Source: Roseobacter sp. MED193 | Lineage (GTDB): Bacteria; Pseudomonadota; Alphaproteobacteria; Rhodobacterales; Rhodobacteraceae | Direction: 5' to 3' | NCBI RefSeq assembly: GCF_000152965.1 | Contig: NZ_CH902583.1 | Location: 4,032,219 to 4,096,218, forward strand | DNA: 64,000 nt | Shown here: piece by piece, positions 6,003 to 11,423 of the stretch | How the letters are laid out: every line of letters begins with the position of its first letter | Numbering within the stretch: position 1 is the stretch's first letter | Made by a program: the position numbers and the translations under genes | Notes under the pieces: model-generated | What the model was told of the DNA's origin: nothing | Seen by the model: only the letters and a program-made list of their open reading frames with translations | Database searches by the model: none

Positions 6003-6809
6003 CTAGAGGTCCAGGTCCACCCAGATCGGGACGTGATCAGAGGGTTTGTCACGGCCACGGATCTCCTTGTCGATCTGACAGTCCTGCAGGAGATCTGCTG
6101 CCTGGGGGGAGAGCAGGAAGTGGTCAATGCGGATACCGTCGTCCCGATTCCAGGCGCCAGCCTGGTAATCCCAGAAGGAATAATGCCCCGGCCCCTGGTG
6201 CCGTGCCCGGAAGGCCTCGGTAAAGCCTAGGTTGACGATCCGCTGGTAGGCGGCGCGGCTTTCGGGGCGGTGCAATGCATCCTCGCGCCAAGCCTCGGGG
6301 CGTTTGGCGTCTTCGGCCTGAGGGATGATATTGTAATCCCCCGCCATCAGCGCAGGCATTTCGCTTTCCAGCAAATCCTGTGCCCGGGCGTGCAGCCGCT
6401 CCATCCAGGCAAGCTTATAGGCGTATTTCCCGCCTGGCACGGGGCTGCCCTCATCGGTGAGTTCTACCGGGTTCCCGTTGGGCAAATAGAGGCCACAGAT
6501 ACGCAGGGCCTGTTTGCCAATAACCGTTGCTTCAATCCAGCGCGCTTGCAGGTCGTCTTCATCCCCGGGCAAACCTCGGCTCACGTCCTCCAGCGGAAGT
6601 TTGGACAGTATAGCAACCCCGTTGAACCCTTTTTGCCCATGGGTTTCGACATTGTACCCGCGCTCTTCAAACAGCTCGCGCGGGAAGGCCTCATCGATGG
6701 ATTTGATTTCCTGCAACACCACCACATCAGGTTTGGCTTCATCGAGCCATTGGGGAAGAGCCGCAGCGCGGGCTTTGATGCCGTTGATGTTGAAACTGGC
6801 GATCTTCAT
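6003..6809 (-). CDS. xth: Exodeoxyribonuclease III
   Basis: This 268-residue Mg-dependent enzyme of the ExoIII/APE fold removes 3' blocks and cuts at abasic sites during base excision repair. Motifs in order are FNINGIKA at the N-terminus, VLQEIK (metal-binding Glu), GLYLPNGNP, GDYNI (catalytic Asp/Asn), DGIRIDHFL and the terminal SDHVPI histidine. The start is the ATG of MKIASFNINGIK, preceded by GGAGA; extending 60 codons upstream adds non-family, Pro-rich sequence. It runs convergent to the monooxygenase and stands alone. Complete, with all catalytic residues present. Confidence 0.95.
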   Translation of the reverse strand: MKIASFNINGIKARAAALPQWLDEAKPDVVVLQEIKSIDEAFPRELFEERGYNVETHGQKGFNGVAILSKLPLEDVSRGLPGDEDDLQARWIEATVIGKQALRICGLYLPNGNPVELTDEGSPVPGGKYAYKLAWMERLHARAQDLLESEMPALMAGDYNIIPQAEDAKRPEAWREDALHRPESRAAYQRIVNLGFTEAFRARHQGPGHYSFWDYQAGAWNRDDGIRIDHFLLSPQAADLLQDCQIDKEIRGRDKPSDHVPIWVDLDL

Positions 6810-7176: not shown

Positions 7177-7488
7177 ATGACTGCTTTGCATAAGATTCAT
7201 ACTGCGACTTTTTCCTCGGCTCAGACAGAGGTTGAGGCGGAAACCAAAGGGAAGAGCCTGTTCCATGGTGATGGGGTTGAGCTTTATTCCTCCGGCTCTG
7301 CGCCCGAAATGACGAGTTGTTGGAGCGGAGAGAGTACCGCGCTGTTTTCTTCTGGTTCGGCGCCAGTGGCACGGGGGGATCAGGCCACTGGGGCATTGGT
7401 GGGGCTGTTCTCTTCCGGGTCGGGCCCTGCGGCTGAGGTCTCGGCGCTGCGGGGGGATTTGTCCGGGCTGTTCTCTTCGGGCAGCTAA
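7177..7488 (+). CDS. Short protein with four L(F/Y)SSGS repeats; precursor-like
   Basis: This is a 103-residue protein of no family I recognise. After a polar leader of about 35 residues come four copies of L-F/Y-S-S-G-S, starting at residues 36, 56, 77 and 98 (spacing 20, 21, 21). The first three are followed by A/G-P, and the last forms the C-terminus exactly. The repeats use different codons for the same residues (TCC TCC GGC TCT, TCT TCT GGT TCG, TCT TCC GGG TCG, TCT TCG GGC AGC), so the peptide sequence is conserved, not the DNA. A single Cys48 lies between repeats 1 and 2. The start at 7177 follows GGAGG by 5 nt; an in-frame ATG at 7132 has a weaker AGGAAG. No signal peptide or membrane helix. 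It heads a three-gene unit; a peptide precursor or a repeat-based binding protein are both possible. Confidence 0.82.
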   Translation: MTALHKIHTATFSSAQTEVEAETKGKSLFHGDGVELYSSGSAPEMTSCWSGESTALFSSGSAPVARGDQATGALVGLFSSGSGPAAEVSALRGDLSGLFSSGS

Positions 7489-7501: not shown

Positions 7502-7527
7502 AGGCGCGCCCCTTCGGGGGCGCGCCT
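7502..7527 (+). terminator. Perfect UUCG-loop hairpin, probable attenuator
   Basis: An 11-bp perfect stem (5' arm AGGCGCGCCCC) is closed by the extra-stable TTCG tetraloop, 13 bp after the repeat-peptide stop and 67 bp before the next gene. No T tract follows (GTACCTG), so it is more likely a transcript-stabilising or partial-termination element. It would let the short peptide be made in excess over the genes behind it. Confidence 0.65.
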
Positions 7528-7594: not shown

Positions 7595-8743
7595 ATGGCA
7601 GTAGTTTTGAGGTTCCCTGATCGTAGGGCGCACCCCAGTCGGGCGGAAAACCTGTCTCATCTGATCCAAGCCCTGACCTGTCACCGCCACCCACAGGAAG
7701 ATGTCTACTGGCTGAAAGAAAATGCGGAACTGCTGAGCGTTCTTGAATGCAGCGGGGAGTTCTCTGCAGAAAAATCTCAGGTCGGAGCGCATGATTTGGC
7801 CAAGGCCTGCCCAACGGCCCTGAGCCCACTGCGCCGTTTTTATAAGGATGCGGACCGTCATCTGTGCTTTTTCCGGCAATATTACCGTTTTATCCTGTCT
7901 ATCTGCCTGGACCTGGAGGATCTGGGGCTGGTGGACACAGGCGGAGGAGATCGCGCAGAGGCGCTGGCCCATTGGGTGAGGCAGCAGGATCTGCCGCAGC
8001 ATGAGTTGTCGGACCTGCAGAGGGCAGAGGCGCGCCGTTTGTTGGCCCGACGTGGCCTGGAGGGGGATTTTCCAGGGTTGGACGGGCGTCTGCGCCTGTT
8101 CGCCGATAACACGACCCAGTTTGCTGTCCCAAATCGAAAAGCGGCCTATGAGCTGACGCATATTGTCTTTTATCTTAGCGACTACGGACGCCGTGATCCC
8201 GATTTGTCAGCTCAGGCGCGATTAAGCCTTGATCATCTCGGGGTGCTTGCATTTCTGGATCAAGACGCGGATCTGCTTTCTGAGGTCTGTATCGCGCTGC
8301 GCTATTGCGGGGAAACCCCCGCTGCGGCCTGGGAGGCATGGTTGAGGCATCATCATCAGGGGTTCGCGCTGAGCTCGGCAGAGCGCGCGACCGCGCCGTC
8401 ATTGCATTGCGACGACTATCATATGTTTCTGGTGAGCAGTTGGTATCAGGGCCTGTCGACTGGGTCCTGTTTCAACCAAGAAATACCGCCCGGTGCTCTG
8501 CGGTTTCAGCGCCCGGAGCGCACAGGGATCCTGCATCAACTCTCCCATGCTGTTTTCCACGCGGGGGGGCAGGTAGGGGATTGGCATCGGCTCAGGTCAC
8601 AGGTCTGCGCCGAGCTGAGCGAGCCCGCCTATCAGATACTCTGTCAGGCCGAGCAAAGTTCTGCGGATTTTGGTGTCTTCTTTGAGGCCTTTGCGCGCAG
8701 AGGAACTATTCAGCCAACAGTGACGCAAGCGGAGGTCGGATGA
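7595..8743 (+). CDS. Unrecognised 382-residue protein in the repeat-peptide unit
   Basis: I do not recognise this family. The predicted protein is soluble and largely helical, rich in Leu, Arg, His and Cys. A striking segment, ELTHIVFYLSDYG, lies at residues 186-198, followed by helical pairs that look like alpha-alpha repeats (LDHLGVLAFLDQDADLLSEV). There are scattered Cys (31 to 350) and a His cluster RHHH near 251. No Walker, SAM, kinase or oxidoreductase motif is visible. The start at the ATG of MAVVLRFPDRR is preceded by GGAG at 8 nt; an upstream GTG is less likely. It follows the repeat peptide and its hairpin, and its stop overlaps the transporter start by ATGA, implying translational coupling. 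A partner of, or modifier for, the repeat peptide is a reasonable guess. Confidence 0.78.
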   Translation: MAVVLRFPDRRAHPSRAENLSHLIQALTCHRHPQEDVYWLKENAELLSVLECSGEFSAEKSQVGAHDLAKACPTALSPLRRFYKDADRHLCFFRQYYRFILSICLDLEDLGLVDTGGGDRAEALAHWVRQQDLPQHELSDLQRAEARRLLARRGLEGDFPGLDGRLRLFADNTTQFAVPNRKAAYELTHIVFYLSDYGRRDPDLSAQARLSLDHLGVLAFLDQDADLLSEVCIALRYCGETPAAAWEAWLRHHHQGFALSSAERATAPSLHCDDYHMFLVSSWYQGLSTGSCFNQEIPPGALRFQRPERTGILHQLSHAVFHAGGQVGDWHRLRSQVCAELSEPAYQILCQAEQSSADFGVFFEAFARRGTIQPTVTQAEVG

Positions 8744-9762
8744 GAGGCTTTTCGGCCCCGGTTCTTGGGGCGTTGATGATCGTGGGCTACACTGGCATTA
8801 TTTCCTCTGCGGACGGGATCATTAAGTTGCTTTCTGGGGGGTATGAAGCGGCGCAGATCTATGCGCTTTCAGGGGGGGTGGTTGCGCTCTTGTCGGTCTT
8901 GACCAACGGGGCGCATAACTTCACCGGGCAGAACCGCCGCACGCGCAGCTCTCCCTTGGCCGATCAAACCGCCGTAGCCCAGCGCACAACGGTCAGAGCA
9001 CCAGCACTGGGGCGTAGATCGCAGCCCAAGCGGGGTGTCAGCTTTGTTCCCTGGCGAACAGAGTGCCCGCGCGCCATGGGGCTGCGAAGTCTGGGGGCGC
9101 TGCTGGGGGCGATTTGCTTTTTCTACGCGTTTCGCCTGCTGCCCTTTGCGCAGGTTTTCCTGTTCATTGGCCTTATGCCACTGCTGGCAGGCGTAATGTC
9201 CGGCGTGATCCTGAAAGAGCGGATCGGTTTTGCCGCTTGGATCGCTTTGGCTTTGGGCTTTGTGGGGGTGATGTTTCTGTTTCCCAGCGGTTTTTCTTCA
9301 GTCTCGGTTGGGCATGGCCTGGCGTTCTTAGGGGCAAGCTGTGGGACGTTTTCGATGGTAATGGCGCGCTACATCAGCCGCTACGATAGCAATCTGATGC
9401 CGCAGGTCTTTTATCCCAATCTGGTGCTGTGTCTTGCGATGCTTCCGCTGTTGCCCATGGTTTGGCAGCCCATGCAGCTTGCGGATCTGGCCTGGGCTTT
9501 GAGCTATGCTGTATTGCTGTTTGCCGCCCGCTCGTTGGCTGTCTCAGCCCTGCGCCTGTTGCCCGCCTATGTGGTGACGCCGCTGATGAACCTGCAATTT
9601 GTCTGGATGCTCACAATTGGCGCCTGGGGTTTTGGCGAGATGCCAACTCAAGGTACCTGGATCGGTGGCTTTATCGTAATTGGTTCCGGTCTGTTTCTAT
9701 TAAGCGGGCAGGTGGTAAAACCCCGCGTCAAAGCTCACGGCAAGGCGGTAACGAGTGCCTAG
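8740..9762 (+). CDS. DMT/EamA family transporter with inserted loop
   Basis: This 340-residue inner-membrane protein has about ten hydrophobic helices arranged as two EamA halves. It is typical of drug/metabolite transporters that move small metabolites or amino-acid derivatives. Unusually, about 50 hydrophilic, Arg-rich residues (roughly 61-112, with RRTRSS and RRSQPKRG) separate helices 2 and 3, where family members have a short loop. The start ATG overlaps the preceding stop (ATGA), so it is coupled to the unknown 382-residue protein. The context suggests export or import linked to the repeat-peptide unit; the substrate cannot be named. Confidence 0.85.
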   Translation: MRGFSAPVLGALMIVGYTGIISSADGIIKLLSGGYEAAQIYALSGGVVALLSVLTNGAHNFTGQNRRTRSSPLADQTAVAQRTTVRAPALGRRSQPKRGVSFVPWRTECPRAMGLRSLGALLGAICFFYAFRLLPFAQVFLFIGLMPLLAGVMSGVILKERIGFAAWIALALGFVGVMFLFPSGFSSVSVGHGLAFLGASCGTFSMVMARYISRYDSNLMPQVFYPNLVLCLAMLPLLPMVWQPMQLADLAWALSYAVLLFAARSLAVSALRLLPAYVVTPLMNLQFVWMLTIGAWGFGEMPTQGTWIGGFIVIGSGLFLLSGQVVKPRVKAHGKAVTSA

Positions 9763-9857: not shown

Positions 9858-10181
9858 TTACATCGAAAAGGAAGTGCCACAGCCGCAGCTGGAGGAGGCA
9901 TTGGGGTTTTCAATGGTAAACCGGGCACCGATCAGCTCTTCGGTGAAATCGATGACCGCGTTTTCCAAAAAGGGCAAAGAGACAGTATCAACCACAACTT
10001 TTTCGCCCTGGCCCTCAAGAATCAGATCATCCGCATTAGGCGCGTCCAGACCGATCTCGTATTGGAAGCCAGAGCAACCGCCGCCCTCAACCGCAATACG
10101 CAGTGCCTGCCCCTGGCTGGCGGCGCCAATCTCTGTCAGGCGGGCAAAGGCCCGGTCGGTCACTTTTGGTGGCAGGTTCAT
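9858..10181 (-). CDS. erpA: A-type iron-sulfur carrier, ErpA/IscA-like
   Basis: This 107-residue HesB/IscA-family protein receives Fe-S clusters from the assembly scaffold and passes them to client enzymes. The three ligand cysteines are present: Cys36 in GGGCSGFQY, and Cys99 and Cys101 in the C-terminal SSCGCGTSF. The start is the ATG of MNLPPKVTDRA with a GGGAGAG ribosome site. It is transcribed divergently from dgt, 90 bp apart, an arrangement common in this order. Distinguishing ErpA from IscA or SufA needs a phylogeny; the lack of an isc or suf operon nearby favours ErpA. Confidence 0.9.
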   Translation of the reverse strand: MNLPPKVTDRAFARLTEIGAASQGQALRIAVEGGGCSGFQYEIGLDAPNADDLILEGQGEKVVVDTVSLPFLENAVIDFTEELIGARFTIENPNASSSCGCGTSFSM

Positions 10182-10271
10182 TTGATCTCTCCCGATGCTG
10201 TATTGCAGCGCACACCAATATATAGAAAGGTGCGAGCCAGACGACAAGATTTCACGGGAGAAAGATTAGTC

Positions 10272-11423
10272 ATGCACGCCTCTTATGCCACCAAACCGGA
10301 TCAAAGCCGGGGGAGGCTGGTCGATGAGGAGGAAAGCAGCTTTCGCTCTCCCTATCAACGCGACCGGGATCGTATCATTCACGCCAGCGCCTTTCGCCGG
10401 TTGAAACACAAGACGCAGGTTTTTGTGGAGCATGAAGGCGATAACTATCGCACGCGGCTCACCCATTCGATTGAGGTCGGCCAGGTCGGGCGCACAATTG
10501 CTGCGGCCCTGGGGCTCAATCAGGAATTGACCGAGGCCGTGGCTCTGGCTCATGACCTTGGCCATACGCCCTTTGGTCACACCGGGGAAGATGCGCTGCA
10601 TGCTTTGATGCAACCCTATGGCGGCTTCGACCATAACGCCCAAGCCATCCGCATCGTGACCTGCCTAGAACGCCACTATGCGGAGTTTGACGGACTGAAT
10701 CTGACCTGGGAGACCTTAGAAGCCATTGCCAAACACAATGGACCGGTCCTGGGGGAACTGCCCTGGGCCTTGGCAGAATGCAATGCGGCGATTGATCTAG
10801 AGCTTCATACCCATGCCAGTGCTGAGGCGCAGGTCGCTGCTTTGTCCGATGATATCGCCTATAACAATCACGACCTTCACGATGGCCTGCGCGCCGGGCT
10901 GTTCACTGATGCGGATATCTTGCAGCTGCCGATCATTGGCCCAGCCTACGCGGCGGTTGATGAAAAATATCCAGGTCTTGATCCATTGCGCCGCCGTCAC
11001 GAAGCCCTGCGCCGCGTTTTTGGCGTGATGGTCGGGGATGTAATTGACACTACCCGCAGCACCCTGTCGCAGAGCGGTGTTCAAAGTGTCGAGGAGGTGC
11101 GCGCTCTCGGCTACCCAGTGGTGGCCTTCTCTCCTGGAATCTGGGCGGATCTAAAGGAGATCCGGGCCTTTTTGTTCACCCGCATGTATCGCGCTCCATC
11201 GGTCATGGAGGTGCGCCTGCGCATGGCGGCGGTGGTTGAGGCGCTGGTTCCCTATTTCTTAGCCAACCCGTTAGAGATGCCCGAACGCTGGCATGAAGAG
11301 ATAAAGGCGGTGTCGGACCAAACCGGCCTCGCGCGGATCATTTCGGACTACATCGCGGGGATGACGGATCGATTTGCTTTGCAAAAATTTGATCAGCTGT
11401 TGGGAGAAGGAAAGCTGTCCTGA
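10272..11423 (+). CDS. dgt: dGTP triphosphohydrolase-like HD protein
   Basis: This 383-residue HD-superfamily enzyme belongs to the short (type 2) dGTPase-like class that hydrolyses dNTPs to deoxynucleoside and triphosphate, keeping pools balanced. Metal-binding signatures are RLTHSIEVGQ, ALAHDLGHTPFGHTGED (the HD pair) and SDDIAYNNHDLHDGL. Start at MHASYATKPDQ; the longer upstream reading is antisense to erpA. It leads toward argS with a YciI gene between. Length and motifs are complete. Confidence 0.92.
   Translation: MHASYATKPDQSRGRLVDEEESSFRSPYQRDRDRIIHASAFRRLKHKTQVFVEHEGDNYRTRLTHSIEVGQVGRTIAAALGLNQELTEAVALAHDLGHTPFGHTGEDALHALMQPYGGFDHNAQAIRIVTCLERHYAEFDGLNLTWETLEAIAKHNGPVLGELPWALAECNAAIDLELHTHASAEAQVAALSDDIAYNNHDLHDGLRAGLFTDADILQLPIIGPAYAAVDEKYPGLDPLRRRHEALRRVFGVMVGDVIDTTRSTLSQSGVQSVEEVRALGYPVVAFSPGIWADLKEIRAFLFTRMYRAPSVMEVRLRMAAVVEALVPYFLANPLEMPERWHEEIKAVSDQTGLARIISDYIAGMTDRFALQKFDQLLGEGKLS

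Follow-up and report, generated by a model that had tools for sequence, protein, structure and literature searches.

The open frame at positions 7177-7488 (+ strand) of the window, i.e. the whole stretch of 64,000 nucleotides analysed here, is best read as a candidate gene for a multi-core precursor of the RiPP type, the product of which would be modified by the DUF6902 protein encoded directly downstream. We assign a probability of about 0.68 to DUF6902 being an enzyme that acts on the repeat protein, whatever its chemistry. As known for RiPPs, a precursor-like protein with a leader and cores under selection adjoins one partner gene, its putative maturase. A domain without assigned function and a repeat protein without a name thereby obtain a joint function open to testing. 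If true, about a quarter of the sampled Rhodobacteraceae genomes (82/295), those with the cassette presumably being roseobacters judged by their closest named relatives, hold an undescribed peptide pathway; its single modifying enzyme would offer a compact means of altering tandem peptides, and candidates for signals or antagonists would be found among the lineage-specific cores.

The frame 7177-7488 encodes a product of 103 amino acids, in which a leader (residues 1-35; 7177-7281, +) with a start of the M(T/S/N)A(L/Q)xK type is followed by four L(F/Y)SSGS repeats on the same strand: core 1, LYSSGS, begins at residue 36 (7282-7299), and the three LFSSGS cores begin at residue 56 (core 2, 7342-7359), residue 77 (core 3, 7405-7422) and residue 98 (core 4, 7468-7485), the last one forming the exact C-terminus with the stop codon next to it. 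Translation and shuffling confirm the layout described in an earlier note on this DNA, i.e. four repeats after a leader at a spacing of 20-21 residues (20, 21 and 21) ending at the C-terminus: four copies of the six-mer were observed versus two at best in 2000 composition-preserving shuffles allowing one mismatch, and at least three copies occurred in 0/2000 shuffles. Within a unit, the spacer ends in G(D/E/A)xxx-hydrophobic, the core (F/Y)SSGS follows and then, except at the C-terminus, (A/G)P. The codon divergence among the copies, also pointed out in that note, amounts to 24 synonymous differences at 32.5 sites versus 10 non-synonymous differences at 75.5 sites, summed over the six pairs of the four copies, the latter including the Phe/Tyr exchange and Ser AGC/TCN paths of two steps. 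Further upstream, the frame is open to ATG 7132 (118 amino acids); we prefer the start at 7177 for its ribosome-binding site, with GGAGG ending five bases before the ATG, and for its M(T/S/N)A(L/Q)xK type, which is seen again in relatives, the starts of the latter having been picked by a script biased towards this pattern. M1 and K6 are invariant in 15/15 aligned repeat proteins, a pattern favoured by the same start-choosing script. ORFs are present over 7177-7488 on the opposite strand as well, and no Pfam or NCBIfam family matched the window repeat protein above cut-off.

The repeat protein belongs to a family in which we counted 572 cores at 88 loci, with 2-20 cores per protein and a median of 6. 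Only words with at most one mismatch to the dominant word entered this count, the dominant words being found by a script and 24 of them set by hand; L099, L112 and L113 hold additional cores missed by it, and the copy numbers of L078, L092, L093 and L116, cut by a contig end, are minima. The 88 loci are those remaining after the removal of L119 and L136, which lack a repeat gene, of L085 with its run of N, of the broken L026 and of five loci duplicating other rows (L016, L021, L105, L106 and L121). Across them we found 40 dominant four-residue core words, including SSGS, TSWS, TSGL, TCGA, TTSM, SSTC and TNWC, with the cores being mostly uniform within one protein (core identity of 0.992 within proteins, high by construction, versus 0.422 between proteins). 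Ser, Thr or Cys is present in 39/40 dominant words, IAGL being the exception, with the word-finding script favouring such words. Phe precedes 507/572 cores, the spacing is 20 or 21 residues in 436/484 intervals, and the final counted core coincides exactly with the C-terminus in 51/88 proteins and lies at most eight residues from it in 82/88. Most same-genus genomes carry four copies, and G004 and G007 carry five. At four loci (L063, L069, L074 and L084) extra cores lie eight residues after the preceding one, as in FTSGLVQMFTSGL, representing a second unit type.

The earlier note had named fixed repeats with variable spacers and a variation in copy number as support for a multi-core or multi-docking design, and both were found: in six same-genus orthologues, a set excluding the 101-residue L007 and longer relatives, pN/pS is 0.025 for the cores, 0.232 for the spacers and 0.327 for the leader, and the copy number ranges from 2 to 20 over the 88 loci. 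Near-identical cores, copy-number variation and variable spacers characterise a multi-core precursor. Homologues without repeats, which had been named as speaking against this role, were not encountered, every relative read carrying repeats. The uniformity of the cores within each protein suggests many copies of one product and not diversity, which counts against our preferred reading.

A folded repeat domain had been named as a second counter-argument. AlphaFold2 applied to the repeat protein with nine sequences yielded a mean pLDDT of 38.8 and a pTM of 0.10 with no strands, predicting a disordered protein without the confident repeat fold of a solenoid. Pfam matches in ten longer repeat proteins, four of which exceed the cut-off (Herpes_UL35 in L058, TRASH_ZMYM4 in L066, T6SS_Vgr in L109 and CRAM_rpt in L133), were rejected as low-complexity, with no stretch passing alone. 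A secreted structural repeat protein, be it a solenoid, an amyloid-like or a surface protein, would agree with the tandem units of about 20 residues and their short hydrophobic stretch, but the low pLDDT, the absence of strands in the model and the low-complexity nature that we ascribe to the Pfam matches all speak against it and it leaves the DUF6902 partner unexplained, making it very improbable.

The repeat gene and DUF6902 occur together. DUF6902 is present in 82/295 sampled genomes of the window's family, and a profile built from 15 repeat proteins and searched over the same 295 genomes matches 76/295, all inside the 82, and 0/213 genomes without DUF6902. This profile misses some repeat genes: six DUF6902 genomes gave no match, among which G110, G275 and G294 have the repeat gene at the locus, and G050 and G299 carry DUF6902 with no repeat gene there. 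The repeat gene lies directly upstream of DUF6902 in 79/81 inspected loci, these being the window and 80 of the 83 matches with their flanks, with the partial matches G192:C73 and G150:C17 left out. Among 12 same-genus genomes, ten carry both genes and the same two carry neither, one of these two (G011) being 86% complete. Both genes are broken in G006, with a stop in the repeat gene and DUF6902 in five pieces; the locus L026 (Phaeobacter sp. CECT 5382) has a disrupted repeat frame together with a DUF6902 frame that does not stay open over its full length. Against joint decay, the DUF6902 match of G003 is in two pieces with the repeat gene being intact. One record, L024, carries the label Nocardioides marinus (Actinomycetota) yet has roseobacter-like genes, probably reflecting mislabelling or contamination.

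The cassette is composed of the repeat gene, the DUF6902 gene (7595-8743, +) and a gene for an EamA (DMT) transporter (8740-9762, +; PF00892, E 1.1e-15), a candidate exporter overlapping the DUF6902 stop by four bases; no peptidase or second maturase is found in the cassette. An EamA relative follows DUF6902 in 61/80 loci, two of them at 29% identity, and no match was obtained in 19/80, one of these being cut by a contig end. In 9 of the 20 listed EamA-free loci the next ORF lies on the opposite strand and encodes 107-116 amino acids, the size of the ErpA-like gene of the flank. Between the repeat gene and DUF6902 we identified a perfect, GC-rich 11-bp hairpin with a TTCG loop (7502-7527, +), which has no T-run and is therefore not a textbook terminator; it may set unequal transcript levels for precursor and enzyme, perhaps as an attenuator. 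Stems resembling it are present in L012 and L013, and the feature is strong in the genus and not general, with z at or below -2 in 20/82 intergenic regions relative to mononucleotide shuffles and z = -1.78 in the window.

Outside the cassette, a divergent exonuclease III-like gene (6003-6809, -; PF03372, E 2.7e-32), which we take to be xthA, forms one flank. The other one comprises an Fe-S biogenesis gene (9858-10181, -, with an inferred start; PF01521, E 1.4e-16), presumably ErpA-like, paired with a second gene that we assume to be dGTPase-like. These three neighbours enclose the cassette in 74, 69 and 69 of 80 loci, respectively. The ErpA-like and the exonuclease gene lie close to each other in 9/10 genomes that lack DUF6902, the tenth, G011, ending at a contig edge, and in the same-genus cassette-free genome G002 both genes are 83 bases apart. 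With its flanks lying near each other in cassette-free genomes, the cassette resembles a module that is acquired or lost at one fixed position. In five of nine cassette-free genomes (L178, L180, L181, L182 and L183) about 600-1350 bases lie between the exonuclease III-like and the ErpA-like gene.

The DUF6902 protein of 382 amino acids, for which we assumed ATG 7595 as the start by analogy with L012 and L013, is a clear family member (PF21843, E 4.7e-126; 420.9 bits versus a gathering cut-off of 27) and at the same time matches PF21836, DUF6895 (E 2.3e-20; 73.6 bits versus a cut-off of 23.8). Its closest named relatives are from Pseudophaeobacter, with 69% identity in the best segment to Pseudophaeobacter sp. 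EL27; a plasmid search with the window protein gave no match. Searching Pfam up to E 1 returned DUF6902 and DUF6895 alone and no nucleotide-, flavin- or radical-SAM-binding family. The protein is predicted by AlphaFold2 to be mostly helical (pLDDT 85.3, pTM 0.86). Foldseek with this model found no solved fold at E <= 0.001, and the DUF6902 profile searched against PDB sequences gave two chance-level matches only. The best Foldseek match, GH154 proteins at E 0.084, was not used. With no fold at this threshold, our reading of the active site therefore rests on conservation.

DUF6895 matched in 13/398 genomes; the matches in the window's family, except for G253, are DUF6902 loci as far as the loci were read, and the matches below cut-off in G381 and G392 lie outside the analysis. 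We analysed eight DUF6895 loci, four each from proteobacterial genomes (L150-L153) and from plasmids (L158-L161) of Kitasatospora, two Streptomyces and Pseudalkalibacillus. Directly upstream of DUF6895, a small ORF resembling a leader plus core is found in 6/8 loci, with a leader-like part of approximately LxxSGLIDxxxTxxQL and a short end containing aromatic residues; five of the eight DUF6895-associated small ORFs were searched against Pfam, and none of these five gave a match. L150 has two small upstream genes, and in L151 and L152 two copies reside in one ORF, as seen for the two leader-plus-aromatic-core copies of L152:8425-8910 (DWTFVSPNYVYKG / DWTFISHNYVYKG) and of L151 (reverse strand, about 9907-10338; GAELAGPWYIYK / GGELVGPWFVLK). 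L153, with a frame of 228 amino acids lacking the YH motif, shows no upstream small-ORF pattern, and L161 deviates in having a 62-residue ORF, one further ORF and two tandem DUF6895 genes. In L161:3833-7688, on a Streptomyces fungicidicus plasmid, the tandem DUF6895 genes are followed by a serine hydrolase gene, which looks like a small biosynthetic cluster. Shi et al. (ACS Catal. 2026, 16, 1757; cited in PMC13352647) describe one DUF6895 member as a lasso-peptide epimerase in their title.

Comparing 87 DUF6902 proteins (of 94, leaving out two short ones and five duplicates) with the eight DUF6895 proteins, we defined a common set composed of Y185, H189, G198, D226, E230, Y275 and H276, arranged in three motifs. 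Motif 1, YELTHIVFYLSDYG (8147-8188, +; Y185, H189, G198), has H189 in 86/87 DUF6902 proteins and is present in 8/8 DUF6895 proteins; motif 2, DxxxE (8270-8284, +), has D226 in 86/87 and E230 in 87/87 DUF6902 proteins and is present in 8/8 DUF6895 proteins; motif 3, YH (8417-8422, +), has Y275 in 86/87 and H276 in 87/87 DUF6902 proteins and again occurs in 8/8 DUF6895 proteins. A strict pattern of all three motifs is matched by 8/8 DUF6895 and 79/87 DUF6902 proteins, five of the eight misses being a Phe192 to Tyr replacement.

Both loci without a repeat gene, L119 (G299) and L136 (G050), encode DUF6902 proteins that lack H189 and D226, which no other of the 88 proteins does. L119 is the sole one of the 87 lacking both and is also changed at Y185, T188 and Y193; L136, too divergent for the 87, has lost H189, D226, E230, Y275 and H276 according to an alignment made uncertain by this distance. 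A chance coincidence of repeat-gene absence and His loss, two each of 88, is expected once in 3828 cases, a post hoc figure. No other single observation indicates as strongly that the motif set is there for the repeat protein. The DUF6902 genes of L119 and L136 are still open frames, and the proteins may have taken another role. At 79 loci the distance between DUF6902 proteins correlates with the distance between cores given xthA (Mantel test, partial r 0.192, with 6/2000 permutations as high), and xthA distance versus core distance given DUF6902 yields 0.086 (171/2000 permutations), suggesting that DUF6902 and core type co-vary weakly, but to an extent not accounted for by the xthA control; shared descent is not removed from this correlation. 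At residue 213 of DUF6902, His is present in 15/17 enzymes with Trp cores versus 5/68 others; this is suggestive, but we do not claim it as a specificity residue, the Trp cores being clustered on the tree (5 changes versus 15.7 after shuffling).

These data support what the earlier note had offered as a pair, i.e. a multi-core precursor or a multi-docking protein, two halves that sequence does not separate; we lean towards the precursor because the motif set is common to DUF6902 and the peptide-epimerase family DUF6895. Were the repeat protein a multivalent docking scaffold, DUF6902 would be a helical non-enzyme receptor, the copy number would set the valency and nothing would be cut or modified. 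The constant spacing of 20-21 residues, i.e. a near-constant repeat period that also fits a repeated binding scaffold, the predicted disorder of the repeat protein and weak Foldseek matches of DUF6902 to importins, catenins and other binders built from helical repeats (none below E 0.1) are in agreement with such a scaffold. It is rendered improbable by the conserved set of His, Asp/Glu and Tyr-His residues that DUF6902 has in common with DUF6895, of which one member is titled an epimerase, and by the loss of His and Asp exactly where the repeat gene is missing.

Returning to the reading of a precursor modified by DUF6902, epimerisation is our first guess for the reaction, since a paper title, and no more than that, presents DUF6895 as an epimerase of lasso peptides; by this kinship we propose it tentatively and with weak confidence. 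According to the model, DUF6902 would bind each repeat unit and modify its core, possibly by inverting an alpha-carbon from an L- to a D-residue via H189, D226/E230 and H276. The gene neighbourhood suggests that the units would be cut apart by a protease encoded outside the cassette and the product be exported via the EamA transporter, where present. A multi-core RiPP with another chemistry on its Ser/Thr/Cys-rich cores, for example dehydration, isomerisation or a cleavage carried out by DUF6902 itself, is a part of the probability of about 0.68 given above and the less likely choice within it: Ser, Thr or Cys in 39/40 core words, found in a biased way, and a superfamily tied to epimerisation by one title only leave room for it, but DUF6902 shows no nucleotide-, flavin- or radical-SAM-binding family in Pfam to E 1 and has the same motif set as DUF6895. 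In its widest form, which we consider possible at somewhat below even odds, our reading describes a new RiPP class in 82/295 genomes, in which DUF6902 would convert 2-20 FxSxS-type cores, nearly uniform per precursor and swapped between lineages, into short modified peptides, with D-residues as the first guess; DUF6895 and DUF6902 would form the shared maturase superfamily of a larger and mostly unexplored group of precursors, with one or several cores, from Proteobacteria, Actinomycetota and Bacillota.

In the open-access papers searched we found no system of the kind formed by the repeat gene and DUF6902: DUF6902 appeared in no paper, DUF6895 was present in the title of a single reference, none of five core strings led to a relevant paper, and DUF6749, which we took as a possible repeat family, gave nothing together with Rhodobacteraceae. 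RiPP clusters are present in Sulfitobacter, presumably a roseobacter genus related to that of the window. The passages on these clusters name DUF692, a P450 and an S9 peptidase as enzymes (PMC11278168) and not the pair of repeat gene and DUF6902; DUF692 is a family different from DUF6902. The epimerase MslH of the lasso peptide MS-271 is described to use His/Asp acid-base pairs on the C-terminal residue of a ribosomal precursor and to have a calcineurin-like fold with Ca(II) (PMC10406935). The last core of 7177-7488 is C-terminal as well; the mostly helical fold predicted for DUF6902 would be unrelated, and a metallophosphoesterase fold was found neither by Pfam nor among the best 50 Foldseek matches listed. 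With the DUF6895 lasso-peptide epimerase known by its title, DUF6902 shares sequence kinship (E 2.3e-20) and the three motifs, the difference being that the gene beside DUF6902 encodes a multi-core protein. Lasso peptide clusters comprise genes for a lasso cyclase, which is Asn-synthetase-like, and a leader protease beside the precursor; Pfam detected neither family in nine window proteins, which thus do not form such a cluster, nor in two further sets of ten neighbours. Multi-core RiPP precursors are known from orbitides, cyanobactins and microviridins, in which a leader precedes tandem cores with conserved flanks and the copy number varies. None of their maturase classes matched in the window neighbours by Pfam, but the repeat protein resembles their precursors in all of these features, i.e. 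the leader, the tandem cores, the conserved flanks and the copy-number variation.
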